Source: a virus. Taken from it: DNA of 31,562 nt. Of the stretch, positions 4,376 to 31,404 are shown in pieces (position 1 is the first letter of the stretch; each line of letters starts with the position of its first letter). Below the pieces are notes generated by a model. It made no database searches. It was not told the origin of the DNA and saw only the letters and a program-made list of their open reading frames with translations. The DNA is taken from IMG/VR virus record IMGVR_UViG_3300007234_000054, positions 1 to 31,562 of that record, one strand, 5' to 3'. The position numbers and the translations under genes are program-made.

Positions 4376-4921
4376 TTGTCTAGAAGAGTGATAGGTATAG
4401 ACCCCGGCCTATCTGGGGCAATCGCCATCTATGATGGTGAAGAGATCGATGTGTGGGAGATGCCCCTGCGTACTGTGGCCAAGCAACGCCGCCGCACCGT
4501 GACAAGGCAAGTACAAGGAGAGAAGATCAAGAGCAAGAAGATGGTTGAAGTAGGGCAGAACTATGTCGATGAAGAAGGTCTTCACGAGCTTATGCTTGAT
4601 AAGAAATTCAACGGCACTGCTCCACGGGTATACCTAGAAGAAGTACATGCCATGCCTCAGCAGGGTGTCACATCGATGTTTAACTTTGGCATGGCTTACG
4701 GTATCGTACGCGGGATGTTCTCAAGCTGGGAGTACGAGATCGTAGATGTTCGCCCGCAAGAATGGAGGAAGTATCTCGATGTTCTGCCTGATAAGGAAGG
4801 CAGTATTATCACGGCCACTGCCCTGATGCCTGATGGTGTTGGAGAATGGCACTCACATGACGGCAAAGCCGAGGCTGCGCTGATCGCTTACTATGGATGG
4901 GAGAAAGAGAATGAGCGTTAA
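4376..4921 (+). CDS. RuvC-like Holliday junction resolvase
   Basis: 181 aa. The opening RRVIGIDPGLSGAIAIYD has the first catalytic Asp of the RuvC/RNase H fold. YLEEVHAMPQQG supplies the central Glu, and SHDGKAEAALIAYYG the C-terminal Asp/Glu pair. The enzyme resolves branched DNA made during phage replication and recombination before packaging. The reading frame starts at TTG 4376, a few bases after AAGGAA at 4364-4369; an ATG at 4351 is out of frame and opens only 10 codons. The stop overlaps the next gene by 11 bases. Confidence 0.88.
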   Translation: MSRRVIGIDPGLSGAIAIYDGEEIDVWEMPLRTVAKQRRRTVTRQVQGEKIKSKKMVEVGQNYVDEEGLHELMLDKKFNGTAPRVYLEEVHAMPQQGVTSMFNFGMAYGIVRGMFSSWEYEIVDVRPQEWRKYLDVLPDKEGSIITATALMPDGVGEWHSHDGKAEAALIAYYGWEKENER

Positions 4922-6879: not shown

Positions 6880-7154
6880 TGTCCTACCCCCTGTGTGTAG
6901 ATGTACGCAACGAGAGACAACATGATAAGGATGGTGCCGCCGAGCACAGATAGAATAAGCTTGTCGAGCCTCGCATGTACTCGCCCGGTCGAGGATTGGA
7001 TAGAAGCCTTAATTTCAGCCAGCGTGGTCTTAGTGTCCCCCTCAAAAGCTTCTCGGCGGTCATTCTGTGCTTCGCAGTAGCGCTCATGCGCATTTATCTG
7101 TTGCTGTAGCATCTCAAGACCATGCCTTGCTGTGATGTCAACTGTCTCGTTCAT
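6876..7154 (-). CDS. Coiled-coil protein with C-terminal membrane anchor (XhlA-like)
   Basis: 92 aa. ATG 7154 follows AAGGAG at good spacing; an in-frame upstream ATG at 7205 lacks one. Residues about 10-65 are charged and helical, followed by one hydrophobic segment (LSVLGGTILIMLSLVAYIY). This is the layout of small phage membrane proteins of the haemolysin XhlA type that accompany holins. It lies in the membrane-protein cassette just before the fibre genes. Function is inferred from layout only. Confidence 0.6.
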   Translation of the reverse strand: MNETVDITARHGLEMLQQQINAHERYCEAQNDRREAFEGDTKTTLAEIKASIQSSTGRVHARLDKLILSVLGGTILIMLSLVAYIYTQGVGQ

Positions 7155-9103: not shown

Positions 9104-10593
9104 TACGGAAGCCTAAACTGAAGCTCGACCAAGAGACCCTTGGCTGGGGTGGTATGCACCGCATCAACATCGATCCGAAGTTGGTCTCCGGTGGCCACGT
9201 CATCGTTTGACGTATCGATAACAGCGGGAGTTGCCGCCGTGCTACTGTCAGTCTCAGTGCTGTCGATGGTGATCTTGGTCGAAAGCATGTCCGCTGCTTG
9301 AGTGACATTGTGGATTTGGATGTCCATCGTTCCTGTCGTGCCTGCGGTCTGGCAACAAGCCGCAACAGCGACCAGATCGAAGCCATTGAGGACGGAGGGG
9401 ATGCGGAAGAACAGGTCACCTGCGCCATCGCCAGTCTCACAATTCAAGCTGTCGTCGAACACCAGAACGGGGATGACAGCCGTACCGTAAGCGGACCCCG
9501 CTAGTGCATCCGGCGTCACGGCTCGCGTTGCATCAGTTCCAGTTGTGACTTCCGAAGCGATAGCAAGTTCGACCTTGCCAGCTTCAGTGGTTGAAGCGGA
9601 AGGAACTTGCGAAATGACAGTCGTTACCCAATTGTCGGGGGTGTTGTCGTCGGCAGTGAACATGACGACTTTGCCCACAGTATCAAGGCCGGTGTAGTCG
9701 CCGTCTACGTCATTGATACGATCCGTCCCGTCGCGCACAACTGTGATGGCGTTATCTACGTTGACTACTTCAATGACGAAGAACATGCCTTCATCCGCGC
9801 CAATGGCCGGGAGATTGATCGCGACCGTGTTACTCGACGCATTGACCTTATAGTAGGTTCTTGCGTCAGAAGTTTCGACATCGTTTGAAGAAGCTGTCAG
9901 CGTCGTAACAGCGGCGTACCCAAATGCCGCTGCTTGTGCCGCTGCCTCACTAGCGGCTGCATTACTCTCTGAAGTAGCAGCGTTGCTTTCGCTGGTTGCT
10001 GCATTCGTCTCACTGGTAGCAGCGTTAGTTTCTGACGTAGCTGCCGCTGTCGCTGAAGCTGCCGCTGCTACAGCCGGATTAGTGATCCACTCAAGCCCCG
10101 TAGCGCCAGAGTTTACCGCAAGGACTTCGCTAGCGCCCGGCGCTGCAACTTCTTCATCGAAGCTAGTGAGATCGACAGACACCGCGAACTTGAGAGACCG
10201 ATCGATCTCTTCCTGCTGCTGCAAGCAAATGATAGCAAGCTTATCCGCCACACGCTGAAGAACTTCAGGGAAGTAAGTGCCTTGGTTAGACAAGGCCACC
10301 TGTTGATCGATGGGAAGGACGCGCTTTATAACTACAGAGATGCCGGAAGCGATAGGCGTCACTTCGTCTTCAGGGTATCGAACGCTGCCTGTGCCGGGGT
10401 ACTCGGAGACTTCCACGGCGTAGGCAGATGCGCCGGTCCCTTCCGACAGAACCGTCTCAACACCAGTAGCATCGACTACCGACTTCACTTCCAAGTCAGT
10501 GCTGGCGTAGATCACCATGGGAGAGAACGAGAAAGTCGTGGCGCTGCCATTGCCTGCGCGAGTGACTTTGTTCGTTGTGTTTGTCAGAGGCAT
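9103..10593 (-). CDS. Tail fibre with T7 gp17-like N-terminus
   Basis: 496 aa. The first 140 residues (NNTT/FSFSP, SGISVVIKRVLP, QGTYFPEVLQRVADKLA) match the virion-attachment domain of T7-type fibres. About residues 175-225 hold a 7-residue repeat (ATSETNA, ATSESNA and variants), likely a trimeric helical shaft. A beta module follows (INLPAIGADEGMFFVIEV...), similar to one in the head protein at 23244-24053, then a C-terminal beta domain. ATG 10593 follows GGAGAAG. Palindrome copy 4 lies 17 bases upstream of the start codon. It links the tail to the receptor-binding protein encoded just downstream. Confidence 0.85.
   Translation of the reverse strand: MPLTNTTNKVTRAGNGSATTFSFSPMVIYASTDLEVKSVVDATGVETVLSEGTGASAYAVEVSEYPGTGSVRYPEDEVTPIASGISVVIKRVLPIDQQVALSNQGTYFPEVLQRVADKLAIICLQQQEEIDRSLKFAVSVDLTSFDEEVAAPGASEVLAVNSGATGLEWITNPAVAAAASATAAATSETNAATSETNAATSESNAATSESNAAASEAAAQAAAFGYAAVTTLTASSNDVETSDARTYYKVNASSNTVAINLPAIGADEGMFFVIEVVNVDNAITVVRDGTDRINDVDGDYTGLDTVGKVVMFTADDNTPDNWVTTVISQVPSASTTEAGKVELAIASEVTTGTDATRAVTPDALAGSAYGTAVIPVLVFDDSLNCETGDGAGDLFFRIPSVLNGFDLVAVAACCQTAGTTGTMDIQIHNVTQAADMLSTKITIDSTETDSSTAATPAVIDTSNDDVATGDQLRIDVDAVHTTPAKGLLVELQFRLP
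9925..10045 (-). repeat. Tandem 21-bp coding repeat in tail fibre
   Basis: About five imperfect units encode ATSE(T/S)NA heptads that decay into Ala-rich sequence. DNA units differ mainly at synonymous or Ser/Thr positions. Such repeats can change length by slippage and so alter fibre shaft length. Boundaries are approximate. Confidence 0.7.
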
Positions 10594-10610: not shown

Positions 10611-10628
10611 TGACATCACGTGATGTCA
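10611..10628. repeat. 18-bp palindrome copy 4 (perfect, intergenic)
   Basis: TGACATCACGTGATGTCA between the large internal virion protein gene and the tail fibre gene, just upstream of the fibre ribosome site. Confidence 0.97.
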
Positions 10629-10660: not shown

Positions 10661-13600
10661 TCACGGACCCTCGTACCGTGGCCCTGTCATATACTCATAC
10701 CACTCGATGTCTTCGTACAGCATATCCTCATAGATGGCGCTGCCAGTCTTGTTGATCTGGCCTGATGGGTATTTGAAAGCGATGCCCAACACCGCATTGA
10801 TAGACTTCAACAAGCTATCATCTACCTCACCTTGAAGCGCCTGATCTTTTACCCTGTTCAAACGCCCAAGCAAGGAACCCCAAGCGCCACCACCTTCGAA
10901 ACCTTCGAAGAACGCCGGGATTTCTCGGACAATAGGAATGCCGCCCGTGGCACCTTTGATGCCCTCCCAAGCAGCCCTCTGCTCCCAAGGGTCATCTTGC
11001 TCTTCATCCGGCCAGCCTTCGCGAATGACCGATGCCAACAAACCTTCGACTACGAACAACAACGCCATGTCTGAGGCGTAGCTGGCAGCTTCGAAACCAG
11101 TCTTGAACGGATGCTTGATGTCCACCGCTTTACCAAACTTGGCAGAGCGCTCGTAAGCTACGTTGGCTTTTGCAGCAAAGTAGTTCAGGAACAGAGAGAA
11201 GGATCGCACAAGCTCACTCTGCCGAACATTACGGTGCAACGTGCCGCGTTCGAAAGCGGTCCGCTCTTGGAAGTTACCTGATCCTTGCGACCGTGCGACC
11301 ATGCGATCCCCAAGCTCGGCGGCTTTCTTCGTATCGCCATTAAACTCTTTCAAGCCCTTCTTGTACGCAGCGATCCATGTTACGAAATCGACCATCCTCT
11401 GCGCTTTACGAATGAACAAGAAAGTAGCATCACCCATGTGCTCGCCAACTCGCCCCGGTAAAACTTTATTAAAGAAAGTGCTATTCAAGCTTCGACGTGC
11501 TTCTGTGATATCCTTGTTGAACGCATTCTCACGCTCCATCATGAAGCCAGACTGCTCTGTAACCCACTGAAGCATCCCATACGGGGCCAACAGATTGCCG
11601 GTCTTCATAGGAGAAGTGATGACATCGAACAAAGCGTTTGCCACATACCTGTGGCCGATCTGCACAGAACTTTGGATAAGACCTAGCGGCTGAAGCGCGG
11701 CCACGCTCATGTTGATGCCCATGGCAGAGATAGTGGTGCCCGCCCTTAGCGCACGGAAGCCGCGTTCTGCAAGGTGATGGCGATGCAGTTCTCCGGTGGT
11801 TACGTCGCCTAACCACACATCGATCATCTCCCAGATTTCTTTATGGCCGCTGTCTACGAATGCCTGCTTCAGCTTCTTGTTGTGGACCACCTTGTAAGCG
11901 TCGATGATCGCATCACCCATCTCAAGATCATACAGGACCATGTTTATGTGGTCATTCAAGACGAAGGGGTCTAACTTTACATCCGCGTTAGTACCTTCGC
12001 GAGCTTCAGTGTGGTAATCCTTAGTGTGCGACCGCGTGAACCCGCCTGTGAGAATTGCCTGCTTAGCTTCTTGCACACTCTCTGTGCTGTCGAAAGCCGA
12101 CTTCTCTGTATCGTACTGAAGAGGGTAGTACCCGCCACGATATGTCTTACCCCGGACTTCGAACTCTCGCGCCGGAACCTTTTCAACATCCTTGTTAAAC
12201 CTGCGACGGTGAGCTTCCTTGATTTCGTCGTAGAAGCTGTCGAGATAGTCCCAGACATTTTGTGCGAACGCTAGATCGCGATCACTGGCGTTTTCAAGTA
12301 CCGCATCAAGCTCTTGCTCTGTGAACTGCTCACTATCCAGCAACGCCTGCCTGTTGCCCTCGTTTCCAAGGTTCAACAAGACCGCAATCTTTTCTCGTCG
12401 CTTCAGGCGACGACGCACGTTGGGAACGTATACCTCTTCCCCCATCTTGCTGCGCTCAGACTTAGAGAACATATCGAACATCTGCACTAAATCTTTACTG
12501 ACTTGAGCGGTTCGACGCACAAGACCAATATGCCCCTCTAGATATCCTTCGGTAGTGGCCCGGTCGATGCCACGCTTTACGCTATCGTAGGCAAGGCCCA
12601 GATCATTGAAGCCATCTATCTCGCGCAGAACCGTATCGATGTTCAGAATGTAGGGTGCAAGTTCGACGCCAAACTTATCCTTTCCTTCTCGCCAGTTCCG
12701 CTTCATAGTCTCCCAACGGCTGACAACGGTTTCTTTAGCTACTTCTCTAGCTTCCAAAACTTTCTGACGAGGCTTGAGATTAGCTTCCATCAACTCGACA
12801 ATTTGATCTACCGTCTCGTCTACGGATGCTTCTCGCGCTGCGTTACGGAACTTGTTTTCATCCCTGCCCATCTTATCGAGGGTTTTGATAGTTTGATAAA
12901 GTTCATTCCACTCGCGAAGAGCAAGATCGTTCACGTGAGTTTTCCCATCAGCGTCGAGAACACGCTGTGGGATTTCAGGAATATACGTACCGCTCTCAAG
13001 CGCCTTACGCTGCGCAAACTCTACAAGCTGAGTGCGCTTTTTCTCAGATAGCCGGGGACCAAGTTGGTAATCCGCAAGCTTCTCACGGATCACATCTAGA
13101 TACTCTAGCGGCAGCGTCTTCGGCACTTTCCTCTTAGACAGGAACTTGCTCAGGAACTTGTTACCCTTAGCGATCCTGTCCTTGTACTTGTAGCTCTCTC
13201 GCGCCATCTCGAACGCGAGTATCTGGTTAGTCTTGTGCTTCGCCGCAGCTTCCCAATCCCCAGAGCGAACAGCCTTACGCGCTTTCATGCTCTCGCGCTT
13301 CTGGATAGCCTCAAACTTCTTAGCGTTGATATGGCGCACAATCTGATCTTCCATCAGGGTTCGCGCACGATTGCGGATAACGCTCAGCTTCAGCCTGCCA
13401 AGGCCTCTTTGCTGCCGGATACGAGCCAGTTCGAAGGCCATCATGTCGGCGTACTTGTCAATCGATAGAGCACGGATCGCCTGATCGATCTCTTCTCTTT
13501 CAGACAGGATCGTAGGAAACTCCTGCTCCATCCGTTGCTGTACTTGCGTAGCAACCGCTTCATCGAAAGACGGATTATCCAGAAGTTGATACAGAAAGAT

Positions 13601-15733
13601 ATCAGGCGACATGCCATAAAGCTCAGCGTAGGCTTTGATGTGCTGACCTTTATGGTTTTTTGGTGCGAAGATACGCTGGCCCTCATACTTGGGCAGAGCT
13701 TTCATGGCTTCTTCATCGCCCAAGACTTCCAGCACGCTCTGGTAGTCTAGGCGATCTTTGCCGATACCAAGGAAAGCTTCGTAGATCGGGCGCGTGGACA
13801 GCTCATCACGTACTTGCTGCGTCACATCTTCGCGAAGGTTCTGATACTCCTTATCTACCCGCTTGGCTTCCCTCTTGAGGCGGCGCTTTTCGACAGCATT
13901 CTTGGCACGTTCACGCACGCGCTTAATGCTTTCGAGATAGCTAGCATACGTAGGCTCAGTCATGCCCGCATCCTTAGCGGTCGTGAATAACGCCTGCATA
14001 CCAAGCTCATGTTCGGCTAGATCGAGAGCTTGTGTCTCCTGCTCAGTTAAAGCAGAAGTATCTGTTTCAGATGTGACATCACGTGATGTCACATCTTCTT
14101 CACCATAAGCATTCAGGACATCGCGCTCGGCCTGATCTAACTCTCGGCTATCTGCCTGTTCTTCCGCCTGTGCTTTCGTCAGCCCATCAGCGCGAAACTT
14201 GGTATGCTCCTTAAACTGATCGCCACGCTCTGCCTGAATGACGTTAAGAGCGAAGTCTTCCATGTTAATACGGACATCGCCACCAAGCTCGCGTGCTTCA
14301 TCAAGCTGATCCTGCACCCCAAGCTGCTCATACAAACCTTCGGCAGTGGGGTCTTCCGCGATGATCCGGTCAAGCTCCTCTACAGGAACGTACACGTCGC
14401 GCACGCCTCGCTCTGCGTAAGACATGGCCACGTGCTTGGCTGCTTTCTCAGGATCGCGCTTGGTTAGGGGAGATTTATCTAGCTCCTGCATCAAGCTATC
14501 GACTTCTTGCACCACCTGTTCCGCTTGGCGCTCCTGCCGGATGTCGGACACGAGACGGTACCCGCTGCCGGGGGCGGCAAGGATGGCCGTAGTCTTTAGG
14601 GTCTTGATGGCGATATCGCTAAGGCGCTCGCTCCACTCGTCGGGCGTCCACTCGGCGGACCCATCGGTCATCTGCTTACCAAGCTCTTCGGCAGCGATAT
14701 TGACAACTTCTTGCGCTACCTCAGTGCCGGTCTCTACCCCAACATTCATAGAGTAGTTCAACACAAAATCAGAAATAGCTTGCGTGAACTTGGGATTTTT
14801 ATAGATGCCCTTCAAGCCCTCGCGAAACGCTCGCTTGCCAGTATCGGACAGGGGTTTCAGGAAGGACGCGCCGCCCAGAGTTTCCAACCCAGCGTTGATG
14901 ATGCCCACGCCAAGAGAAGTCCAGTAAGCGACATCAGGGTTCACGCCAGCTTCAAGCTGCTCCACGTAAGACAGCCCAGCTTCTACTTCTCCGACATCCA
15001 TAATCTGATGCCCAACGAAACCAGAGACGCCACCACCAATAGCGCCCGCTGTAACAGTCAAAGGCGCAAAGATACCGCCCGCTAAACCTGTCAACGATCC
15101 AGCGGCAGCGCCAGCGCTGATACGTGCGGCTGCTTCCGGCCTATCTACGGATGCGACACGCTGGCCAAAGAACTCCATCACACCGGCCAGCCCTGAAACA
15201 AAACCTTCAGTATCGTTGCCTAAGCTGCGCAACCTTTCTTGGAGCACCTTCACTCGCGTTTGTGCGTTTTCGCTTTGGGGAGCGGAACGAAGATCAAGAC
15301 CGGCATAGCCTAGCTCACTCATGGTCTCGCCGCGTTCATACCCACGGATCAAACGCTCGATAAAGCTGAGGTTTTTTACGCTGTCGTGGGCCACCTTCGC
15401 GTTGTTCGGGTCCGCCAAGAAATTGGCAGTAGCAGGATCAGCCTTGAGAAACTTATCGAGGCCGTAGATTTCTTCGGTCTTCAAATCGTCTTCGACATAT
15501 TCCAGTGCATCCGGCTCGACGCCGAACTGCTTTGCACGGCGCTGCTTTTCCGCTTCTGCATCCGGGTTGACATCACGTGATGTCTGAAGGTTCGTGATAG
15601 CTGCATCCGAGGCGGGGCCGGTTAAGAACTGCTCTACGCCTGCAACGCCTTCATTAGGCTGATCTACTCTAAGATCAGGGGCAGAGCCTTGCCCTGAGAA
15701 GAACGCATCAAGACCTTTGATTTCTTCAGCCAT
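10661..15733 (-). CDS. Large internal virion (ejection) protein, T7 gp16-like
   Basis: 1690 aa, the largest gene here. Position after gp13/14/15-like genes and before the fibre matches T7 gp16, which forms part of the channel that carries DNA across the cell envelope. The N-terminal third has a Gly/Ala-rich hydrophobic stretch (about residues 205-245), suited to membrane insertion; the middle is long, charged and helical. I do not see the lytic transglycosylase domain that opens T7 gp16. Two palindrome copies are read in frame (TSRDV at residues 51-55 and about 549-553), both in acidic linkers. Start overlaps the upstream stop as TAATG. Confidence 0.8.
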   Translation of the reverse strand: MAEEIKGLDAFFSGQGSAPDLRVDQPNEGVAGVEQFLTGPASDAAITNLQTSRDVNPDAEAEKQRRAKQFGVEPDALEYVEDDLKTEEIYGLDKFLKADPATANFLADPNNAKVAHDSVKNLSFIERLIRGYERGETMSELGYAGLDLRSAPQSENAQTRVKVLQERLRSLGNDTEGFVSGLAGVMEFFGQRVASVDRPEAAARISAGAAAGSLTGLAGGIFAPLTVTAGAIGGGVSGFVGHQIMDVGEVEAGLSYVEQLEAGVNPDVAYWTSLGVGIINAGLETLGGASFLKPLSDTGKRAFREGLKGIYKNPKFTQAISDFVLNYSMNVGVETGTEVAQEVVNIAAEELGKQMTDGSAEWTPDEWSERLSDIAIKTLKTTAILAAPGSGYRLVSDIRQERQAEQVVQEVDSLMQELDKSPLTKRDPEKAAKHVAMSYAERGVRDVYVPVEELDRIIAEDPTAEGLYEQLGVQDQLDEARELGGDVRINMEDFALNVIQAERGDQFKEHTKFRADGLTKAQAEEQADSRELDQAERDVLNAYGEEDVTSRDVTSETDTSALTEQETQALDLAEHELGMQALFTTAKDAGMTEPTYASYLESIKRVRERAKNAVEKRRLKREAKRVDKEYQNLREDVTQQVRDELSTRPIYEAFLGIGKDRLDYQSVLEVLGDEEAMKALPKYEGQRIFAPKNHKGQHIKAYAELYGMSPDIFLYQLLDNPSFDEAVATQVQQRMEQEFPTILSEREEIDQAIRALSIDKYADMMAFELARIRQQRGLGRLKLSVIRNRARTLMEDQIVRHINAKKFEAIQKRESMKARKAVRSGDWEAAAKHKTNQILAFEMARESYKYKDRIAKGNKFLSKFLSKRKVPKTLPLEYLDVIREKLADYQLGPRLSEKKRTQLVEFAQRKALESGTYIPEIPQRVLDADGKTHVNDLALREWNELYQTIKTLDKMGRDENKFRNAAREASVDETVDQIVELMEANLKPRQKVLEAREVAKETVVSRWETMKRNWREGKDKFGVELAPYILNIDTVLREIDGFNDLGLAYDSVKRGIDRATTEGYLEGHIGLVRRTAQVSKDLVQMFDMFSKSERSKMGEEVYVPNVRRRLKRREKIAVLLNLGNEGNRQALLDSEQFTEQELDAVLENASDRDLAFAQNVWDYLDSFYDEIKEAHRRRFNKDVEKVPAREFEVRGKTYRGGYYPLQYDTEKSAFDSTESVQEAKQAILTGGFTRSHTKDYHTEAREGTNADVKLDPFVLNDHINMVLYDLEMGDAIIDAYKVVHNKKLKQAFVDSGHKEIWEMIDVWLGDVTTGELHRHHLAERGFRALRAGTTISAMGINMSVAALQPLGLIQSSVQIGHRYVANALFDVITSPMKTGNLLAPYGMLQWVTEQSGFMMERENAFNKDITEARRSLNSTFFNKVLPGRVGEHMGDATFLFIRKAQRMVDFVTWIAAYKKGLKEFNGDTKKAAELGDRMVARSQGSGNFQERTAFERGTLHRNVRQSELVRSFSLFLNYFAAKANVAYERSAKFGKAVDIKHPFKTGFEAASYASDMALLFVVEGLLASVIREGWPDEEQDDPWEQRAAWEGIKGATGGIPIVREIPAFFEGFEGGGAWGSLLGRLNRVKDQALQGEVDDSLLKSINAVLGIAFKYPSGQINKTGSAIYEDMLYEDIEWYEYMTGPRYEGP
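14074..14091. repeat. 18-bp palindrome copy 5 (perfect; symmetry extends to 28 bp)
   Basis: TGACATCACGTGATGTCA with flanks that continue the perfect inverted symmetry to 14069-14096, the longest in the window. It lies inside the 1690-aa gene in the TSRDV frame. Confidence 0.97.
15568..15585. repeat. 18-bp palindrome copy 6 (17/18)
   Basis: TGACATCACGTGATGTCT; the terminal mismatch is the same base as in copy 2. It is read as TSRDV at residues 51-55 of the large internal virion protein. Confidence 0.95.
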
Positions 15734-18365: not shown

Positions 18366-18839
18366 TTATCTCTCCATGCTAAAGCGGTGGAACGGCAGGC
18401 CATCCGGCCCGTAAGGCTTAGGGTAGTACACAGAAAACCCAACCCACTGAAGCCAGCGTATCGCGTCTTCGTTACGAGCATCGACATAGTTTTCCATGTA
18501 CTCATATTTACTCCGCCAGTCTTCAACTACCTTGATGCTCTCCCTGAGAAACTTACGCCCATGAAAGCTAAGAGAATTGGTGCCTATCATCCATGGGACC
18601 GCCGTGTTCCCCAGCATAGTTGGCGCTTTACATCCGAACATGCATAATACTGTGTCATCTGCTTGCCCGATCTTGACATCACGTGATGTCAGAAAAGAAC
18701 CTTTCAGCGCATGAAAGGGCAGTAAATTAGTGGAGGCCCAAATCTCCTGTCGATCTGCTTCTCGAATATTCTGTACTATGGTCTTGATGTCTGCCGCCTG
18801 TGCGTCGCGAATAGAATATTCAACCTCATTCTTCATCAT
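18366..18839 (-). CDS. T7 gp13-like protein (GNAT-like fold), in-frame palindrome
   Basis: 157 aa. The opening IRDAQAADIKTIVQNIREADRQEIW and the later ENYVDARNEDAIRWLQWVGF fit the gp13/DUF2833 family, which has a GNAT acetyltransferase-like shape and is needed for T7 core assembly. Between them the family's surface loop holds FLTSRDVKIG, where TSRDV (residues 51-55) comes from palindrome copy 7. Comparing this loop with relatives lacking TSRDV is a clean insertion test. It overlaps the nozzle gene end by 14 bases. Confidence 0.75.
   Translation of the reverse strand: MMKNEVEYSIRDAQAADIKTIVQNIREADRQEIWASTNLLPFHALKGSFLTSRDVKIGQADDTVLCMFGCKAPTMLGNTAVPWMIGTNSLSFHGRKFLRESIKVVEDWRSKYEYMENYVDARNEDAIRWLQWVGFSVYYPKPYGPDGLPFHRFSMER
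18674..18691. repeat. 18-bp palindrome copy 7 (perfect)
   Basis: TGACATCACGTGATGTCA inside the gp13-like gene, in the TSRDV frame. Confidence 0.97.
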
Positions 18840-21800: not shown

Positions 21801-21879
21801 CATACGCCGCCGTATCAACCCGACCATAGAGATCAGAGCCAATCTCGCCTCGGGCCATGGAGGGTTGGATAATACGCAT
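18826..21879 (-). CDS. Tail tubular protein B/nozzle (T7 gp12-like) with four FCCH-like repeats
   Basis: 1017 aa, longer than T7 gp12 (about 800). The opening MARGEIGSDLYGRVDTAAYAV and GGASNRPGLAFV are typical of podovirus nozzle proteins that close the tail end. Four copies of a beta repeat (A-x-PVVVTTS-x-H-x-(Y/L)-x-(N/D)GD-x-V-x-I...NGR-x-F-x-VAN-x-T-x-TTFEL) sit at about residues 103-180, 286-352, 688-754 and 763-838. They resemble the E1 FCCH-type domain found in several phage structural proteins and explain the extra length. ATG 21879 overlaps the upstream adaptor stop as TAATG. Confidence 0.85.
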   Translation of the reverse strand: MRIIQPSMARGEIGSDLYGRVDTAAYAVALKTALNVQISSYGGASNRPGLAFVCPCKESTGTPPALIEFRFNKSDTYVLEFGDQYMRVVRNDSQVLESAKTITGATKADPVVITTSAAHGYSNGDDVYISGCTAMPEINNRWFTVANKTSTTFELTDLRSGADIDGSGYSAAGTDGSVFKVYELATPYAIADVLTLKHKIVQSANVMTLTHANYAPRELSRTDHDAWSLDVITFAPAQASPTGQTVTVNSTASVTERYQVTAINKDNEEESLPALSNTTTSSATATAANPVVVTASSHPYVNGDEVHLSGFTEMTEVNGRRFTVANKTTNTFELEGEDGSGYDAETTGGNINATFVEVTNSKSTIDNTISWTAATDAQKYAVYRRENGIYGLIGETELTSFEDDNISADLSLTPPKARNPFFGEGNYPSVASYYEQRRVFASTDNKPDTSFYSVTGSQANMSQSSPRQSDDAITATLNSLEVNAIEALVPGNDLLIFTSGQEWRVNAGTEASFSAETLRQKPQSSWGASYLKPIVIGDKTLFVAENQSQVRSIGYEITVDGYKGNDMTIFAPHLLYEYAPVDWAYYGVPDPMVAMVRADGLVCNMTFNPEQEVIAWTRWKTEGKFKRVASTRPTSSDRETVPYFVVERTVGGSPAWYIERLATRRFFDVRDAFFVDSGSTYDVPINISGVTAADPVVVTTSANHNLSDGDQVDIHDILWEPNVDSSFNETQPAQLNGNRFRVADATSTTFSVISNEQNDRVDISAVTQADPGVVTTLEDHGLSDGDVIAIFNVSGMTSLNGNTYKVANSTDDTFELTTLADADVDTSGYSAYTSGGQIYPAIDGSAFNAYKESGTVREAVLTVTGAWHLEGITDAVALCDGEVVEDITVANGSVTFDRRYSRVHLGRRIIADVETLPPESGRGTVQGKDLRTPYVALRLKDTRGLLVGPDSSSLVELAQREDENYGEPTTLENGDVEIEIFSDWASQGKVFIRQIYPLPMTISAIMPNIEEGDDDEE

Positions 21880-22490
21880 TAGTTTCTGACCTTGAGAGTT
21901 TGGGCTTCAAAAGCCGTCTTAGGAACTTCTTGCTGAGCGTCCACCGCAGTAGCTTGCACTCTCATGTCGTTGAAACGCTTTTCAAGGCGATCCATGATGG
22001 TAGACTTACCCGTCAACTCATACGCGATATAAAACCCGAGCCGAACGCTCAGCATATTGATCGCGTGCATGGACCATAGATCGAGAGTGGTGTGGTTCTT
22101 GGTGTAGATCAAGACTGCATTTTCCTGATCCGTCACAACAGTAACGCTATCAGCTTCATCGTCAGCATCCTCAAGCTCATAAGGGACCGGAGCAGCATCA
22201 GCGCCTAAGGGGTTTTCGATATAGCGCGGGGCCACACAATCCGAAGGCAGAGCGTACCGAAATCTCCACCTATTCGTAGGAGCAGCTTGGTCTGACAGGG
22301 CTAGTGCTTCGGATTTACGAGCGAAGCTCCAATTGTGCGCTTCCAATGTTTCGAACCGAGCAGGTTCATACCATGTACGACAGGCGTTAGGAGCGACGCC
22401 CGCCTGTGTCTCACTCTGGATCGTGCTCTTCGATCCTACGCGGGACGCAGCCATGTTGAACACTTGAGCTTTCGTAAATCCTACTGGCAT
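21879..22490 (-). CDS. Tail tubular protein A/adaptor (T7 gp11-like)
   Basis: 203 aa. FTKAQVFNMAASRVG at the start, CRTWYEPARFETLEAHNWSFA and RWRFRYALPSDCV are the hallmark strings of the gp11-like gatekeeper that joins portal to nozzle. ATG 22490 has a near-perfect AGGAGG. It is the first tail gene after the head block and is preceded by a GC-rich hairpin and palindrome copy 8. Confidence 0.88.
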   Translation of the reverse strand: MPVGFTKAQVFNMAASRVGSKSTIQSETQAGVAPNACRTWYEPARFETLEAHNWSFARKSEALALSDQAAPTNRWRFRYALPSDCVAPRYIENPLGADAAPVPYELEDADDEADSVTVVTDQENAVLIYTKNHTTLDLWSMHAINMLSVRLGFYIAYELTGKSTIMDRLEKRFNDMRVQATAVDAQQEVPKTAFEAQTLKVRN

Positions 22491-22543: not shown

Positions 22544-22561
22544 TGACATCACGTGATGTCA
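22544..22561. repeat. 18-bp palindrome copy 8 (perfect)
   Basis: TGACATCACGTGATGTCA. Its outer TGA on the minus strand is the stop codon of the 22559-23179 gene, and it lies 7 bases from the GC-rich hairpin. Confidence 0.97.
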
Positions 22562-24084: not shown

Positions 24085-24102
24085 TGACATCACGTGATGT
24101 CA
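24085..24102. repeat. 18-bp palindrome copy 9 (perfect; symmetry extends to 24 bp)
   Basis: TGACATCACGTGATGTCA flanked by GGG and CCC, so the inverted symmetry covers 24082-24105. Intergenic, between the cement and beta-rich head genes. Confidence 0.97.
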
Positions 24103-24111
24103 CCCCTCGCC

Positions 24112-24582
24112 TTAGTTCTGGGCGTCAGCCTGAGCGACCCACGCGGACGGGTTCGGCGTCAGGAAGGCGTTGATCGCGCCCGCCGTAACCGTAGTCGTCG
24201 CAATGACGCAGAGGATGCCGAGGTAGCGCTCGTAAGCGCGGCCCTGCATCGGCAGCGGGAAGATGCCGATGTTTGCCCCAGCGTCGAGGTCGTTGGCGTC
24301 GTCACCGTCCGTAACGAAAGTGCCGGTATCGATATGCACCGTGGCCGTTCCGTCAGTGGCGATTGCCGCCTGCGCGTCGGATGCAAGCTGGAACTTGATC
24401 GTACCGGCGGACCCACCAGTGATGATCGAAGTCGTCGTCTGCATGACGAGATACAGGTTCGGCATACCGTTGCCGATGTCGCGAGCCACCGTAAGGTCGA
24501 TGACATCGCCGATGAGAGCCGTGCCTGCCGCAGCCGCTACGCTGGTGGCATCGCAGAACTCGTTGCGTTCGTCCAAGATCAT
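24112..24582 (-). CDS. Capsid cement protein, Bbp16-like
   Basis: 156 aa. MILDERNEFCDATSVAAAAGT, then VIDLTVARDIGNGMPNLYLVM and a C-terminal YERYLGILCVIATTTVTAGAINAFL, follow the layout of Bbp16, the cement protein that clamps the BPP-1 capsid. The gene is directly downstream of the major capsid gene, as in BPP-1-type phages. ATG 24582 follows AAAGGAG. Confidence 0.82.
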   Translation of the reverse strand: MILDERNEFCDATSVAAAAGTALIGDVIDLTVARDIGNGMPNLYLVMQTTTSIITGGSAGTIKFQLASDAQAAIATDGTATVHIDTGTFVTDGDDANDLDAGANIGIFPLPMQGRAYERYLGILCVIATTTVTAGAINAFLTPNPSAWVAQADAQN

Positions 24583-25652: not shown

Positions 25653-26381
25653 TTACTTTTGGTTTTTCATGGAGGGGTACATCTTCTCCGCTCTGGACCG
25701 ACGATCCGAAGCATTGACCCCGAAGCTGAACTCGCCCTCTTCGGAAATGTACTGCCCTAGCGTATAGAAAGCTTTGATCGCAGCCGGGTGATCGCCCAGC
25801 CCCGTCAAATCCATGGCGTCAACGAGGTCTTGACCGCCTAGCTTCAGCGCCGCATTCTTGGCCACGCTGAGAGCTTCATCGATCTTCCCATCTTCGCCCT
25901 GAAGGGCCTTGTCCGCTTTCGCGTCTTTAGCCCAGCCTTCCTTAACTGCGTCCCACTGCTTACTCTGGTCAGCAATGATCGCCTCACTGATCTGTTGCAC
26001 CGTTTCGGCGTGCATCGTGACAAGCTCCTGAGCTTCCTCTTGGGTAAAGTTCTTACCCTTCGCAAACTCGGAAAAACGCTCTAAGCGTTCCTCATCAACC
26101 GGCATACCTTCGGGCAGTGTGAAGGCTTCATACTGGTCAGGGGCACCGTCAGACTTGTCTTCTTCGTCGTCTTCCGACTTGTCTTCCGACTTGTCTTCCG
26201 CGCCCTTCTCGGGATCACCACCGGCTCCGTCGCCCTTATCTTCGGACTTGTCGCCGGTGTCTTTACCTTCGGCACCTTCGCCTCCGGTATCTTTATTCGC
26301 CTCGGCATCCGCAGACTGCTGTTCCGCAGTCGCGCCACCTTCAGCGCCTTCCCCCACATCATCCGTTGCTTCATCAGCCAT
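25653..26381 (-). CDS. Scaffolding protein
   Basis: 242 aa. Residues about 1-85 are extremely acidic and low-complexity (GEGAEGKDTGDKSEDKGDG). The C-terminal part (FAKGKNFTQEEAQELVTMHAE ... WAKDAKADKAL ... GQYISEEGEFSFGVN) matches phage scaffold proteins that guide capsid assembly and then leave. It sits between the Bbp19-like and capsid genes, the standard place. ATG 26381 follows AAAGGA, overlapping the upstream gene by 8 bases. The acidic part includes 12-bp tandem repeats (26171-26200). Confidence 0.85.
   Translation of the reverse strand: MADEATDDVGEGAEGGATAEQQSADAEANKDTGGEGAEGKDTGDKSEDKGDGAGGDPEKGAEDKSEDKSEDDEEDKSDGAPDQYEAFTLPEGMPVDEERLERFSEFAKGKNFTQEEAQELVTMHAETVQQISEAIIADQSKQWDAVKEGWAKDAKADKALQGEDGKIDEALSVAKNAALKLGGQDLVDAMDLTGLGDHPAAIKAFYTLGQYISEEGEFSFGVNASDRRSRAEKMYPSMKNQK
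26171..26200 (-). repeat. 12-bp tandem repeats in scaffold gene
   Basis: CTTCCGACTTGT twice, followed by CTTCCG, encodes the repeated Ser-Glu-Asp-Lys of the acidic scaffold arm. Confidence 0.85.
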
Positions 26382-26706
26382 CGTCGTCGTCCTTTCTTCC
26401 CGCTTGGTCTAAGTCAAACTTGTCTGCAAAATCCTGCGCTTCCTGTTGCATTAGAATATACACGCCGGGATTTGCTGTCAAAGCACACTTGAGCACTTCT
26501 TGAGCCACTTCATCGCGCCCAACCATCCTATTCAGGCGCTCCGTATCGAAAGGCTTTGTGGAGTTTCCGTAGATATCTCCCATGCTCAGGATGCTGTAAA
26601 TAATGAAACGGCCCTCATACGTATCGAGGACTTTCTGCCACATCTCTTTTTCGATGTGCCTTCTCGCCGCCGCAAGGTCTTCCGGCGTGACATCACGTGA
26701 TGTCAT
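26374..26706 (-). CDS. Bbp19-like protein starting inside a palindrome
   Basis: 110 aa. WQKVLDTYEGRFIIYSIL...NRMVGRDEVAQEVLKCALTANPGVYILMQQEAQ matches the Bbp19 family of small head-module proteins found between portal and scaffold in BPP-1-like phages; the role is unclear. Its ATG at 26706 immediately follows the portal stop (TAG), and codons 2-6 (TSRDV) are palindrome copy 10, so the repeat forms the N-terminus. Relatives should show whether these residues are an addition. Confidence 0.78.
   Translation of the reverse strand: MTSRDVTPEDLAAARRHIEKEMWQKVLDTYEGRFIIYSILSMGDIYGNSTKPFDTERLNRMVGRDEVAQEVLKCALTANPGVYILMQQEAQDFADKFDLDQAGRKDDDDG
26688..26705. repeat. 18-bp palindrome copy 10 (perfect)
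   Basis: TGACATCACGTGATGTCA covering codons 2-6 of the Bbp19-like gene, directly after the portal stop. Confidence 0.97.
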
Positions 26707-28422
26707 CTACTTCCTCCCCACTGCCGAAGACAGCACATTATCATCCCCGAGTTTAGCATCGGATGCCATCTTCATGGCGTTAGCAGCCTGCGCCGCCATC
26801 TCCATCTGCTGCTGTTGCTGCATCTGCTGAGCACGAAGCTCTCGCATCTGCTCCGCATCTCCTGTCGGAACAATCATCTTCGCAGGAGCACCAACAAGAT
26901 CAGCATAATTATCCAGCGTATGATCGCCGTCGATCTTATCCAGCGCTCCCTCGAAACCCATCTCTCGCATGGCACCAGCGAAATTAACCGTGCGTTCGAT
27001 AGCATTGGTGGCGACCGACTTCTGTGCTTGTGCCAGCGCGGATACGAACTCTATGTCCAGTTCCTTGCCTTGAAGACCCCTCGGCGCGGGCGGCATGATA
27101 CCCGCTTCAAGCACCTGTTCGCCAATGCGATTGACCATCAGGCTCAGCCATTCACCGTGAACCTGTTGCAGGCCCGGTCCGATCTGAAGAAGACGCTCTT
27201 CATTCACCTGAGAAAGGTACAGTTCATTCTTGGGCTGCACCCCCTCATTCTCCGTGATGGCCATGAACAGGTCAGTGAAGAAGCCCTCATTGATCCGGCG
27301 CTCGATACGTTCGATGTTCCAGCCCTGCTCCTGTACGCGAGGATCAAGCTTATACAGGCTTTCGATCTTCTGGTCCCCGCCCATGGCAGAATTGGAGGTG
27401 ACGCCGCCCGGCAGATTGGCGATAGGCTGATTGCGGAAGGACGGCGGAGCTTGCAACGGCGGATTGCCCGCTTTGGCAATCGAGTTCATCAAGTCCCGCT
27501 CGCTCTGCTGAAGAGACTTAACATCTGCCAACGTGACCATGCCGGGACTTTCTACGGCATACACATCTTCATTGGCGGTCATCCAGCGAGGCGCATAGCC
27601 GGGGAACACACGATACCCCGACTTCTTGAGATACGCGCTGTACTCTTTCTTACCCTTGGCTTTGTTCTTCTCTTCGAAGTAGACCGAACGAAAGCGCAAG
27701 TTCTCCGAGAAAGGAGAAGAAGGATCGTATACCGGATTAGGTTCTAGCACGTGATAGACAGTGTGCCACGAATGATAGTTGCCGTTATCGTAGTTGTTCT
27801 GCACGCTTTGGCTGACGCTATCGTAGCCATATTCCGCTACAAGATTGTAAGCTGTCTGCTGGTATTTACGGACAGCCGTGTTAACCCTGTGCTTCTTGTC
27901 GGTGGCAAGCATGAAACTGCCAACTGTGTGAGTGTAGAACCGGGCAACATTCTCGAAATCATTCACATGCGTCATAAACGGCGTACCGAATACGAGCAAC
28001 TCCCGGATCATCAAAGGAGCCATGTTGTAGAGATTGCTCTTGGCCGCGACCATGAGAACGACATCTCGGTACAACTCAAGCCAAGCCTTGTGCTCACGTG
28101 GCCCAAGCAAGTCCTTGTTAAGGAGCGACCACACGAACCAAGGCCGAGACGGAGACATCACACCTGCGAACATACCGGCCACTGCTTTTCTGAGCGCCCG
28201 GCTTGCCGCATTGTTGATGATGTTCTTGTAGCGCTTGTCGCCTTTGTTGCGATCCTCAACAAAGAAGCGCCCACGTCGCGGGTCAAGATACTCCGACAAT
28301 TCCTTGTAGTGAGCCTCGAAGGATGAATACTCAAGCTCCATGCCTGAGATACGCTTCATCAAGTCATCACGATCCTGATGCTCATCCGTCGATTTCTTTT
28401 TCTTGTCGGCGTCCATGGCCAT
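26707..28422 (-). CDS. Portal (head-tail connector) protein
   Basis: 571 aa. ELSEYLDPRRGRF, NNAASRALRKAVAGMFAGVMSPSRPWF and LLVFGTPFM are the conserved strings of the podovirus head-tail connector family (BPP-1 Bbp21 type, Head-tail_con). The C-terminal tail is Gln/Met-rich (AQQMQQQQQMEMAAQAAN). Twelve copies form the ring through which DNA is packaged. ATG 28422 follows AGGAG. Its stop abuts the Bbp19-like start. Confidence 0.92.
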   Translation of the reverse strand: MAMDADKKKKSTDEHQDRDDLMKRISGMELEYSSFEAHYKELSEYLDPRRGRFFVEDRNKGDKRYKNIINNAASRALRKAVAGMFAGVMSPSRPWFVWSLLNKDLLGPREHKAWLELYRDVVLMVAAKSNLYNMAPLMIRELLVFGTPFMTHVNDFENVARFYTHTVGSFMLATDKKHRVNTAVRKYQQTAYNLVAEYGYDSVSQSVQNNYDNGNYHSWHTVYHVLEPNPVYDPSSPFSENLRFRSVYFEEKNKAKGKKEYSAYLKKSGYRVFPGYAPRWMTANEDVYAVESPGMVTLADVKSLQQSERDLMNSIAKAGNPPLQAPPSFRNQPIANLPGGVTSNSAMGGDQKIESLYKLDPRVQEQGWNIERIERRINEGFFTDLFMAITENEGVQPKNELYLSQVNEERLLQIGPGLQQVHGEWLSLMVNRIGEQVLEAGIMPPAPRGLQGKELDIEFVSALAQAQKSVATNAIERTVNFAGAMREMGFEGALDKIDGDHTLDNYADLVGAPAKMIVPTGDAEQMRELRAQQMQQQQQMEMAAQAANAMKMASDAKLGDDNVLSSAVGRK

Positions 28423-28437
28423 GGTCTACTCCTGTTC

Positions 28438-28455
28438 TGACATCACGTGATGTCA
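28438..28455. repeat. 18-bp palindrome copy 11 (perfect, intergenic)
   Basis: TGACATCACGTGATGTCA between the proline-rich small gene (stop at 28457) and the portal gene (start 28422), just upstream of the portal ribosome site. Confidence 0.97.
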
Positions 28456-28456
28456 G

Positions 28457-28663
28457 TTATTGCCCCAACAAGGTTTTGGCGGTGCCTTGCTGCACTCCGC
28501 CTTCGATAGCGCCGCCGAGAAGGGTCTGCTTCTTCACGCCAGTAAGGCCGCGTCGCGCCTTCTTACGAGAAGCTACCACATTCTCGTCCACGGGCGTAGG
28601 AGCCTTCGGCGGAGCCGGGGGCGGCGGGGGAGGGGCCGGGGCTTTCGGGGAGGAAACGCACAT
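28457..28663 (-). CDS. Small proline-rich protein
   Basis: 68 aa. Begins MCVSSPKAPAPPPPPPAPP, a proline tract, then a basic segment (ASRKKARRG) and KKQTLLGGAIEGG. Small proteins of this type, opening with Met-Cys, occur between terminase and portal in related phages, sometimes annotated as hypothetical. AAGGAAG precedes ATG 28663. The proline tract DNA is a G-rich stretch on the + strand (see findings). No function is known. Confidence 0.65.
   Translation of the reverse strand: MCVSSPKAPAPPPPPPAPPKAPTPVDENVVASRKKARRGLTGVKKQTLLGGAIEGGVQQGTAKTLLGQ
28617..28650 (+). other. Potential G-quadruplex tract
   Basis: Five runs of four or five G (28617-28621, 28626-28630, 28632-28635, 28638-28641, 28647-28650) with loops of 1-5 bases on the + strand, opposite the proline codons. 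It meets the usual G4 pattern; structure is not demonstrated. Confidence 0.65.
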
Positions 28664-28676
28664 GGAAACTTCCTTC

Positions 28677-30407
28677 TCAATCTATGGACACGTGTGCAAG
28701 AGGGTCTACTTCTGGGGTGATCTGCGGAGACCGGCTCATGCCGTGCGGCTGGGACACACGCGCCACATCCTGCGCGTAGTTCAACGCCAACGCATCGGCA
28801 ATATCGGGGGATGCAAGGCCGCGAGCCTTCATATCTTTCTTGGTCTCCAAGTGTATCTTTTCACCTTGAAGTGTATAACCAAACTCACGTTGGGTCAATT
28901 GACCGAACAAGTCCTGTGCCGTCTGTATCTGCGCCCGACCGGGCATCTGCATTGTCTCGTCAACGAACTCAGGAAGCATCGGCAGGATAAGGCTCGTCTT
29001 GATGGCTTCCTTCATCCGACCCCACATTTCGTCAGAGCGATACCGATACGTCTCCGGCTGGAATACGGGAGTGTTTCCGAAGTTCACCGGGAAGATCAAG
29101 CTAGCATACCCCGACTGGTTGAGGATATCGACAACGCCCGCACCAACGCCGCCAACGTCAACGAAGACGCCTGATATCTCCGTGCCGAGAGAATGAAAGA
29201 ACTCGATTTTCTGAATGACCTTGTTCGCCACAGCTACGTTATCGAGACCGTTATAAACCCCATCGCCCACAACAGGCATGAACGACCGCGCATCGTTTCC
29301 GATCACAGGGTAGATGACGCTGTTATCGGGGCCGAACCGGGCTACGTCAACGCCGATGGTGACGGCGGCGTTACGGTCGGCCACGCTCGGACGAAAACTC
29401 GCTCTCTTGGCCCACGCTGTCGGGATGAACTGAAGCGTACCCTGCGACGGGAACTCGCCCCTGACACGGACCTTTACGAAGTCACTGTCTTCGCCGTAGT
29501 CCTCAACCCACTCCCGCATCCTCTTCTTGTTCGTGATGTAGACCGAGCGGCTATCGATCTTCCTCACAATGTAGCGATGCTTGAGCTTGCCCTCGCATTC
29601 CTCGAAAAAGGCTCCGCTGTTTCTCGTGGGGTTGCCGAAGTCAAACGTCATCGGCTCGCCGTCCGTGGTGCCGCCCTCGCGAACCTCATGGATTTTATCG
29701 GGGACCGCGCTGTCCTCATCGAAGATGTAGTAAGACGTAGAATTGGCGGCGTGCTGGCCCGCGAACGCTTCCGAGTTTTCCTCCCGGCTAGTTTGCGCCG
29801 TGCAAAACCACTCTTCAGGATGCTTCTTGTAGCGAAGAGACATGCTGCCTCTTCCGCTGTTGTACTGGAACCAATGCTCAGTCAGCGATCTCTTGTGCCA
29901 CTTCCCAAGCTCAGCCCACGTCTTTGTCCTCAACTGCTCAGCCGTGTTGGCGGTGACAGTCCCCTTGCTGTACGGGCGAGTGTCGGAAATGAACTTAATC
30001 AACCAAGCGACCAGCGTGGACTTGCCGATGCCGTGCCCGGATGACGTGGCGAACTGGATAGGATCGACAGCCACACTCCCGTCGAATGCTCTCTTGTCGA
30101 TCTCCTTCCCTAGCTGTTCGAGGAACTCGCACGCCCACATATCCGGCCCGTATCGAACACCGTATCGCATTCGATAGTCTGCCATGTATTCAGCATACGT
30201 AACGAGATCGAGATCGCCAGTGTATACGTTGTGGATCAGCTTCGTATCCGGGTCCACGAATACGCTATCGTTTTCCCAATCGATCACCTGAATAGCCGGA
30301 TCGCTATCCCAAGGAAACGCCAGCATCACGTAATCAAGGGGTTTGGCGTAGCACTCCCCCAAGATGTCAGCTATCTGGGCGTCCGTACTCAGTTTATCAG
30401 GCTTCAT
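28677..30407 (-). CDS. Terminase large subunit (ATPase + nuclease)
   Basis: 576 aa packaging motor. Walker A is SGHGIGKST (residues 123-131) and Walker B is YYIFDED (about 226-232). The RNase H-like nuclease shows the acidic residues of VDVARFG (D354), FVDVGG (D417) and SPDIADAL (D535/D538). It pumps DNA into the head through the portal and cuts it. ATG 30407 follows GGGGA and overlaps the upstream gene by 11 bases. Confidence 0.93.
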   Translation of the reverse strand: MKPDKLSTDAQIADILGECYAKPLDYVMLAFPWDSDPAIQVIDWENDSVFVDPDTKLIHNVYTGDLDLVTYAEYMADYRMRYGVRYGPDMWACEFLEQLGKEIDKRAFDGSVAVDPIQFATSSGHGIGKSTLVAWLIKFISDTRPYSKGTVTANTAEQLRTKTWAELGKWHKRSLTEHWFQYNSGRGSMSLRYKKHPEEWFCTAQTSREENSEAFAGQHAANSTSYYIFDEDSAVPDKIHEVREGGTTDGEPMTFDFGNPTRNSGAFFEECEGKLKHRYIVRKIDSRSVYITNKKRMREWVEDYGEDSDFVKVRVRGEFPSQGTLQFIPTAWAKRASFRPSVADRNAAVTIGVDVARFGPDNSVIYPVIGNDARSFMPVVGDGVYNGLDNVAVANKVIQKIEFFHSLGTEISGVFVDVGGVGAGVVDILNQSGYASLIFPVNFGNTPVFQPETYRYRSDEMWGRMKEAIKTSLILPMLPEFVDETMQMPGRAQIQTAQDLFGQLTQREFGYTLQGEKIHLETKKDMKARGLASPDIADALALNYAQDVARVSQPHGMSRSPQITPEVDPLAHVSID

Positions 30408-30660
30408 CGCTTTCCCCGATATCGAACTTCATCTGCGCCGGGTCCACCGTATTGATCGCCATCTTCGCATCCGTGGCCACCGCCATGAACATCCCGGACA
30501 GAAAACACTTCAGCAAGTCCATGTGCACCTTCGCCAACGTATCCGCCACGAACATCACACGCTCCGCGTGCTCCTTCGGCACGATCAGCATATCCTCCCC
30601 TAAACAGACGATCAGGTCTTCTTTCGCAGTCCTCTTGAAATCAACTCCTGTGTGCACCAT
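30397..30660 (-). CDS. Hypothetical protein between terminase genes
   Basis: 87 aa. GGAGGAA precedes ATG 30660, and the gene overlaps the large terminase start by 11 bases, so it is very likely expressed with it. The centre is helical (HAERVMFVADTLAKVHMDLLKCFLSGMFM). No family is recognised. Its place between small and large terminase suggests a packaging accessory, by position only. Confidence 0.6.
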   Translation of the reverse strand: MVHTGVDFKRTAKEDLIVCLGEDMLIVPKEHAERVMFVADTLAKVHMDLLKCFLSGMFMAVATDAKMAINTVDPAQMKFDIGESDEA

Positions 30661-30678
30661 TTCTTCCTCCGCTTATTT

Positions 30679-30708
30679 TGACATCACGCTAAAGCTACGC
30701 GGATGTCA
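30679..30708. repeat. Interrupted palindrome copy (expanded loop)
   Basis: Both 7-bp arms TGACATC and GATGTCA are intact, but the 4-base centre ACGT is replaced by 16 bases. Compared with the other copies, this is a 12-base expansion at the centre. It lies between the small terminase gene and the 87-aa gene, and its last 3 bases are within the small terminase stop region. Confidence 0.85.
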
Positions 30709-31365
30709 GTTCACTTCCTCGTAATCGGCATCGATTGTCTTGGGCGCATCCTTCTCAATTCGCTTCCGCCCTCGCGCCAACCTCTCTTCAATCGTCACTC
30801 CACCATCATTGACGGTGATGTTGTCATTGAACATCCCGAAGATACGCGCCAAGGCCACCAAGGCGCTGTCCTTAGAATACGGCTTCACCCGCACCCTCTT
30901 GACTTCCTGCGCGTCATCTCCGCGCCCTTCCTTGTACGTTTCAACCGTGACTTCACCAATCGCGGCAAAATCATCCATACCTGCTTCCGTGAAATCGAAA
31001 ATGAAATCCCCCGTATCCTCATCGACCGCAATAAAGTTGCCGATGTTAAAGAACGCGATCTTCGCAAGCTCGTCCTTGACACGATCCTGAATATTGTCGG
31101 CGCGCTTAATCATGTCGCCACGTCTCTGCTCAAGATACGCAGCAACCTTCGGCGTCGTAAACAATCGCGTGCATTGCGCAAGCGCCGTGGTCTTTGGGTA
31201 CCCCGCCTTCATCATGGCTTCCGACCGGCTGAAGCCCTGAAGATGGTACTCGACCGCCATGAACTGCGGTTGAGACAGCTTGGCCGCAAGGCTCTTCGAT
31301 GTCGGGCCTCCTTGTGGCTTCTTATGTCGTTTCGTAGCGATCTTGCGCGTCTTTGGTTTGGCCAT
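30706..31365 (-). CDS. Terminase small subunit
   Basis: 219 aa from ATG 31365. A second in-frame ATG at 31377 would add four residues, but GGGGA lies 5 bases before 31365, so I prefer the shorter form. A basic N-terminus is followed by a helix-turn-helix region (LSQPQFMAVEYHLQGFSRSEAMMKAGYPKTTALAQ) typical of the Terminase_2 DNA-binding domain, then VAAYLEQRR and a beta-rich middle. It recognises phage DNA and hands it to the large subunit. It is the first gene of the leftward late block. Confidence 0.88.
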   Translation of the reverse strand: MAKPKTRKIATKRHKKPQGGPTSKSLAAKLSQPQFMAVEYHLQGFSRSEAMMKAGYPKTTALAQCTRLFTTPKVAAYLEQRRGDMIKRADNIQDRVKDELAKIAFFNIGNFIAVDEDTGDFIFDFTEAGMDDFAAIGEVTVETYKEGRGDDAQEVKRVRVKPYSKDSALVALARIFGMFNDNITVNDGGVTIEERLARGRKRIEKDAPKTIDADYEEVN

Positions 31366-31404
31366 TCTCTTCCCCATGCCGTGCGCTTTCGGAATTAAGA
31401 GGAT

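Follow-up and report, generated by a model that had tools for sequence, protein, structure and literature searches.

The 30-bp element at positions 30679-30708 of the window (the whole virus record analyzed here, G000, 31,562 bases) is the twelfth member of a set of dispersed palindromes (dyads). We consider it, with a probability of about 70%, to be the recognition site of a symmetric DNA-binding protein, disrupted by a central insertion of approximately 12 bp. Besides the element, the window holds 11 copies of the standard 18-bp palindrome TGACATCACGTGATGTCA at one mismatch or fewer, nine of which are exact, against 0.01 expected from shuffled sequences. The palindromes, to which no strand applies, and the genes around the element are as follows.

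1563-1580, intact palindrome, overlapping the start of the DNA polymerase A ORF
4233-4250, palindrome with one mismatch (last base)
5242-5259, intact palindrome, within ORF 4893-5609
10611-10628, intact palindrome, between ORFs 9103-10593 and 10661-15733
14074-14091, intact palindrome, within the 1690-aa ORF
15568-15585, palindrome with one mismatch, within the 1690-aa ORF
18674-18691, intact palindrome, within the internal virion protein ORF, at the same codon position in six relatives
22544-22561, intact palindrome, upstream of the tail-protein ORF 21879-22490
24085-24102, intact palindrome, downstream of ORF 24112-24582
26688-26705, intact palindrome, overlapping the start codon of ORF 26374-26706
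28438-28455, intact palindrome, between the terminase large subunit gene and the portal ORF
30679-30708, expanded palindrome, holding the stop codon (30706-30708, minus strand) of the terminase small subunit gene
30689-30700, insertion of approximately 12 bp (CTAAAGCTACGC), placed by comparison with the 18-bp consensus, its exact ends being ambiguous
28677-30407, minus strand, terminase large subunit (terL), without a Pfam match and named by alignment to annotated phage terminases
30397-30660, minus strand, 87-aa ORF without a Pfam match, downstream of the expanded palindrome
30706-31377, minus strand, terminase small subunit (terS), Pfam Terminase_2, E = 1.6e-16

The late block of the window lies on the minus strand and is epsilon15-like, comprising the small and large terminase subunits, portal, protease, major head protein, tail, and internal virion proteins. 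On the plus strand lies the DNA polymerase A ORF, with a Pfam score below the cut-off, and the early region seen in relatives is apparently largely missing from the window. A lone exact half-site, GTGATGTCA, occurs without a partner at 7132-7140, where approximately 0.24 such half-sites were expected by chance from simple arithmetic.

The expanded element

The element (TGACATCACGCTAAAGCTACGCGGATGTCA) retains both arms, TGACATC and GATGTCA, exactly, and a centre of 16 nucleotides replaces ACGT, just as the earlier note, which had drawn attention to intact arms around a centre expanded by 12 bases, described it. The extra CGC/GCG pairing that the same note thought allowed is found inside the centre in the predicted fold. 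The left half-site (TGACATCAC, plus G) is whole, and the right half-site retains seven of its nine bases; base 30701, which lies beyond the 12-bp insertion, also departs from the canonical right half. A search for the exact arms at any gap from 0 to 30 gave ten matches in the window, namely, the nine standard copies and the element, with 0.01 expected overall. The element had been placed between terS and the next gene; the next ORF does start at 30660, but the last three bases of the element are the terS stop codon, so that it is not wholly intergenic. No promoter-like site was found in 30300-31200, and when the origin of the insert was sought with words of 9 to 11 bases, the rest of the window gave matches of 9 bases only.

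The element lies approximately 850 bases from the contig end, a location that agrees with a sequencing or assembly artefact. By contrast, L003 (IMGVR_UViG_3300006802_014000, 4220 bases), a contig that may or may not stem from the same sample as the window, aligns to window positions 26675-30894 at 99.88% and carries the identical 30-base expanded copy; the two differ at 5 of 4220 positions, none of which is within the element. An assembly error is unlikely because L003 was separately assembled and has the same expanded copy, and we find an artefact of either kind hardly credible. No third near relative was found when the collection was scanned for the exact 18-mer, a scan that may omit records very near the window.

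Spacing and centre of the palindromes

The spacing of exact 6-base arms was counted in 24 contigs, some of which are overlapping or near-identical (L089/L090 and L056-L058), and 85 pairs had the standard spacing versus five with another. Besides the element, these five comprise a two-base contraction in L073, neighboring sites in L057, an arm of an intact site paired with a stray arm in L011, and a pair in L037 that is probably due to chance. The copy at L073:3256 (GGTATCAGGATACC) has a centre two bases shorter, which is the opposite kind of spacing variant to the element. When 7-base arms with up to one mismatch per arm were counted in ten genomes, 142 pairs were standard and 26, including the element, were not, versus approximately 28 nonstandard pairs expected by chance from single-arm counts; the element was the only one of the 26 with both arms exact. 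Two of these pairs, one in G009 at 9292 (+7 bases) and one in G008 at 18904 (+1), resemble weak spacing variants but are within chance. Over the set, the inverted half-sites stand at the invariant spacing of a fixed-spacing dimer site, whereas the element, at 30 bp versus 18 bp, does not.

The central ACGT was kept in 149 of 160 sites from nine records, a set picked by resemblance to the consensus of each record, in which a few sites at three mismatches may be chance. Counted from the outside to the centre of the half-site, the mismatches in these nine records numbered 14, 9, 61, 15, 7, 24, 6, and 6 of 320. Self-complementarity was lacking in 82 of the 160 sites (in G014, 15 of 16), and a comparison position by position gave 85 broken cells versus nine changed on both sides. 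This pattern of mismatches is opposite to the expectation for a hairpin, and, judged from the sequences, it would fit a dimer of a DNA-binding protein.

The earlier note had suggested that a hairpin, whether in RNA or as a cruciform, may matter more than a fixed-spacing dimer site; the hairpin would then be the functional form, with a loop free to expand. In line with this, the element folds as the arms plus CGC/GCG (z = −1.58 for the minus, coding strand and −2.62 for the plus strand), two of the five intact copies examined formed better folds than any of 200 shuffles, and pairing of the flanks showed a weak excess when summed over 77 sites (66 versus 55 expected, p = 0.04), which was also seen in the window alone (p = 0.013). 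However, the other three intact copies were similar to their shuffles (z = −0.11, −1.09, and −1.35), flank pairing per position was near expectation, and no terminator-like site was found at the element. A hairpin is not supported because the part that would form its loop is better kept than the rest of the palindrome and about half of the sites are not self-complementary; over the set, compensatory changes did not maintain the pairing, nor was the loop free. With the spacing fixed and the fold of the element modest, we regard a functional hairpin as quite improbable.

We instead favor a disrupted protein-binding site. The normal palindrome would be bound by a symmetric protein dimer, with one subunit on each half-site (GACATCAC in the window; GGTATCAC and similar sequences in relatives). 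A small insertion of approximately 12 bp at the centre would have parted the half-sites and destroyed the central ACGT, and the dimer would be unable to contact both halves at 30679 as usual, with binding lost or reduced to one half-site. Protein binding, the dimeric nature of the protein, and the weakening of the element are what we infer here, and the element was most likely disabled or weakened by its twelve extra bases. Several observations speak against this explanation: the arms of the element retain every base, unlike those of a long-dead site, its position is not generally conserved, and the centre is not invariant (two of four dyads in L154 depart from it). Since the arms are fully kept in the window, the insertion may be recent.

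The same arms could belong to a specialized site. Twelve additional base pairs are approximately one helical turn, which would leave the half-sites facing almost the same side of the helix; a protein that is flexible or multimeric might then still bind, and the effect at the terS-terL boundary would differ. Such a role agrees with the unaltered 7-bp arms, with the complete left half-site, and with the location of the element at what is a dyad position in G001. However, no other exact-arm pair with an enlarged centre occurs in the genomes examined, stray and chance pairs aside, and the centre, elsewhere among the best-kept parts, is lost. We therefore consider a specialized site unlikely.

Palindromes in related phages

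The window palindromes are part of a dyad system that is dispersed through the genomes of a clade of epsilon15-like podophages. We gathered relatives by their terminase, with a second list limited to the best 80, and many of these terminase relatives carry their own version of the dispersed palindrome. GGTATCACGTGATACC is the form in G001 (48.8 kb; 30 sites at up to three mismatches), G008 (17 sites at up to two mismatches), and G009 (26 sites); GGTGTGACGTCACACC is found in G002 (12 sites at up to three mismatches, one of them probably chance) and GGGATCACGTGATCCC in G011 (23 sites at up to three mismatches), and G014 and G013 have mixed forms. The central ACGT is common to the consensus forms found in the contigs of these relatives. 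The dyad set was not detected in G015, G016, G017, or G020, and ATCACGTGAT, GTGACGTCAC, and TACACGTGTA were all absent from nine named phage records (L029 and L104-L111, of which vir555 is itself a metagenome assembly).

Individual records showed further variants. MZH0603 has a different repeated near-palindromic word. L154, a locus that also encodes a protein of the A2 family described below, carries four imperfect dyads (2483, 8241, 11823, and 18548), two of them with a centre other than ACGT. At G001:C1:17775, 19386, and 19612, the second base pair is changed on both sides (GCTATC/GATAGC for GGTATC/GATACC), and these three copies are clustered within approximately 2 kb of a region that may be divergent. 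In L057, three GGTTACACGTGTAACC dyads lie within approximately 90 bp (around 138-223), approximately 1 kb ahead of terL.

Exact matches to the 18-mer in L001 and L002 were judged coincidental because TSRDV is the sole open reading of the word; these matches are inside ORFs reading VTSRDVT, at loci that have no other DNA similarity to the window. The proteins concerned (L001:6085-6200, where VTSRDVT is repeated, and L002:5418-5445) look replication-related and are apparently unconnected with the dyads. A scan of genomes for hosts found none; it gave two distant matches in MAGs (33% identity), with no dispersed dyad set in the stretch examined. Judged by title and abstract, searches with the motif listed no phage paper, and general searches listed none on such palindromes.

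Conserved positions of the palindromes

The nine late sites of the window, including the element, were mapped to relatives via homologous proteins, and a site within 120 bp was counted as a match; random controls placed sites uniformly, whereas real sites prefer gene ends. In G001, eight of the nine sites were matched (random mean 0.98), and in G008, seven of nine, with none of 2000 random trials as good in either case. Fewer matches were found in G014 (4/9, p = 0.0075), G002 (2/9, p = 0.037), G009 (2/9, p = 0.19), and G011 (2/9, p = 0.14).

The element itself maps 8 bp from an intact palindrome in G001, and this G001 site contains the terS stop codon, as does, from a reading of its sequence, the site in L038. 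Among 11 relatives, a site at the terS end is present in L019 (G001), L038, and probably L053 (L059 is too short to tell); L043 and L048 instead have a site across the terL start, and L036 has none there. In G008, G009, G014, G002, and G011, the nearest site is 228 to 1218 bp from the place of the element. With regard to conservation of the expanded form in relatives, which had been proposed as a check, the form is kept in L003, and the palindromes of G001, L038, and probably L053 at the terS end are intact. Such intact counterparts agree with the other option that the earlier note offered, a dead or specialized site.

A dyad in the internal virion protein gene, in places imperfect, occupies identical codon positions in the window and in G001, G008, G009, G014, G011, and G002, and the encoded residues vary with the DNA motif (TSRDV, VSRDT, VSRHT, VSRDA, VSRDP, and VGRHT). 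Because the dyad stays at the same codons while the amino acids follow the motif, these sequences point to selection at the DNA level. In G013, the dyad is nearer to the start of the gene, and G015 and five named phages have no dyad at this place. The palindromes might alternatively be neutral relics without a role, for example, a mobile repeat scattered by copying, and nine window copies are indeed exactly identical; however, the same places are occupied in diverged phages despite a genome-wide change of motif, which recent copying would not yield, and this explanation appears very improbable to us.

A candidate reader of the palindromes

A nameless family of helical proteins, which we term A2, is a candidate reader of the dyads. 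Its conserved block is INVRLxKA...ADDHRLAAA...GIKFxxW...SYETxRKL. A2 was found in all seven dyad-bearing contigs of at least 43 kb that were examined whole (G001, G002, G008, G009, G011, G013, and G014) and also in the 27-kb G022; G001 and G011 each have a second copy, as does G002, where it is weak (E = 1e-9). Members of the family, identified by alignment and often flanked by dyads, include the following, among others.

L033:8717-9523, minus strand, A2-family protein
L119:19172-19990, minus strand, A2-family protein
L125:15881-16693, plus strand, A2-family protein

A2 was absent from G015, G016, G017, G020, and the nine named records. It was not found in the dyad-bearing window, G023, and G027, all of which are short (31.6, 26.5, and 19.6 kb, respectively). 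Conversely, G018 (L152) has A2 and G019 a weak A2 match, and no dyad set was detected in either. A dyad lies within 110 bp of an end of 9 of 10 A2 genes versus 79 of 206 other ORFs of at least 150 aa (Fisher p = 0.0016, an optimistic value because the 110-bp threshold was picked after the approximate distances had been seen). Since the clade also shares other exclusive genes, including the polymerase, the association between A2 and the dyads may be only a matter of common descent.

The AlphaFold model of A2 is all-helical, with a mean pLDDT of 81 for the whole protein and 85.5 for the core, which in the model could be read as helix-turn-helix-like. No convincing match to A2 was obtained in Pfam, PHROGs, NCBIfam, or PDB sequences. 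Fold searches with the whole model and with the core gave no convincing match either, only middling ones to helical bundles, and neither supported nor refuted the helix-turn-helix reading.

Comparison with known systems

Phage N15-type centromere sites and parS are dispersed inverted repeats. The window motif also contains TCACGTGA, the parS core. However, the centre of the G002 dyad is TGACGTCA, and a ParB_N (PF02195) gene was found in none of eight records, which are possibly incomplete, whereas the same profile matches 10 of 14 control genomes. In the same number of records, including the window and again possibly incomplete, neither a tyrosine integrase (0/8) nor a serine recombinase (0/8) was found, and HTH_3 was matched in one (G008), below the cut-off; the window seems to miss much of the early region.

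The Salmonella phage epsilon15 is a distant relative of the window by its late genes, and it has seven annotated repressor sites, which are dyad-symmetric (ATTACC-N5-GGTAAT), scattered, and in one case just before terS. Its sites differ from those of the window clade in their sequence, in the N5 spacer versus ACGT, and in being fewer. Epsilon15 also has an annotated integrase and an HTH regulator, whereas the eight records of the clade have no integrase and no HTH_3 over the cut-off.

Cluster A mycobacteriophages such as L5 and Bxb1 are described as having 20 to 30 stoperators throughout the genome, with a motif that varies with phage divergence (PMC6550527; PMC9283540). Stoperators are 13 to 14 bp long and without dyad symmetry; most of them point in the direction of transcription, and the repressor binds them as a monomer (PMC6550527). 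The palindromes of the window clade resemble them in that many copies of one short lineage-specific motif are spread across the genome, but they are dyad-symmetric and hence not asymmetric sites in one orientation. To judge by these comparisons, the dyads would work like a dispersed operator set. Since searches detected neither an integrase nor a ParB gene, the dyads can be called neither "stoperators" nor "centromeres", and membership of the epsilon15 type can likewise not be asserted.

We tentatively propose, at rather less than even odds, that a clade in which neither integrase nor ParB, nor a CI-like repressor scoring over the cut-off, was detected marks its whole genome with lineage-specific dyads, approximately 11 to 30 in number and many of them conserved in position, that these would be read by the co-evolving all-helical A2 to arrange transcription or the genome in lytic growth, and that the copy at 30679 would be a natural spacing variant of one address.

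Significance of the expanded palindrome

The element is a variant within the dyad set. On its own, the expanded copy is a minor curiosity, yet it provides a built-in test of spacing in a type of site that does not otherwise vary. Of greater importance is a dispersed, symmetric, and lineage-specific set of sites, many members of which are fixed in place as the motif shifts throughout the genome. Phage immunity offers a known case of dispersed lineage-specific sites, the stoperators, whose usual partners were not found in the dyad clade. In these phages, the dyad system may serve immunity, transcription control, or genome organization.
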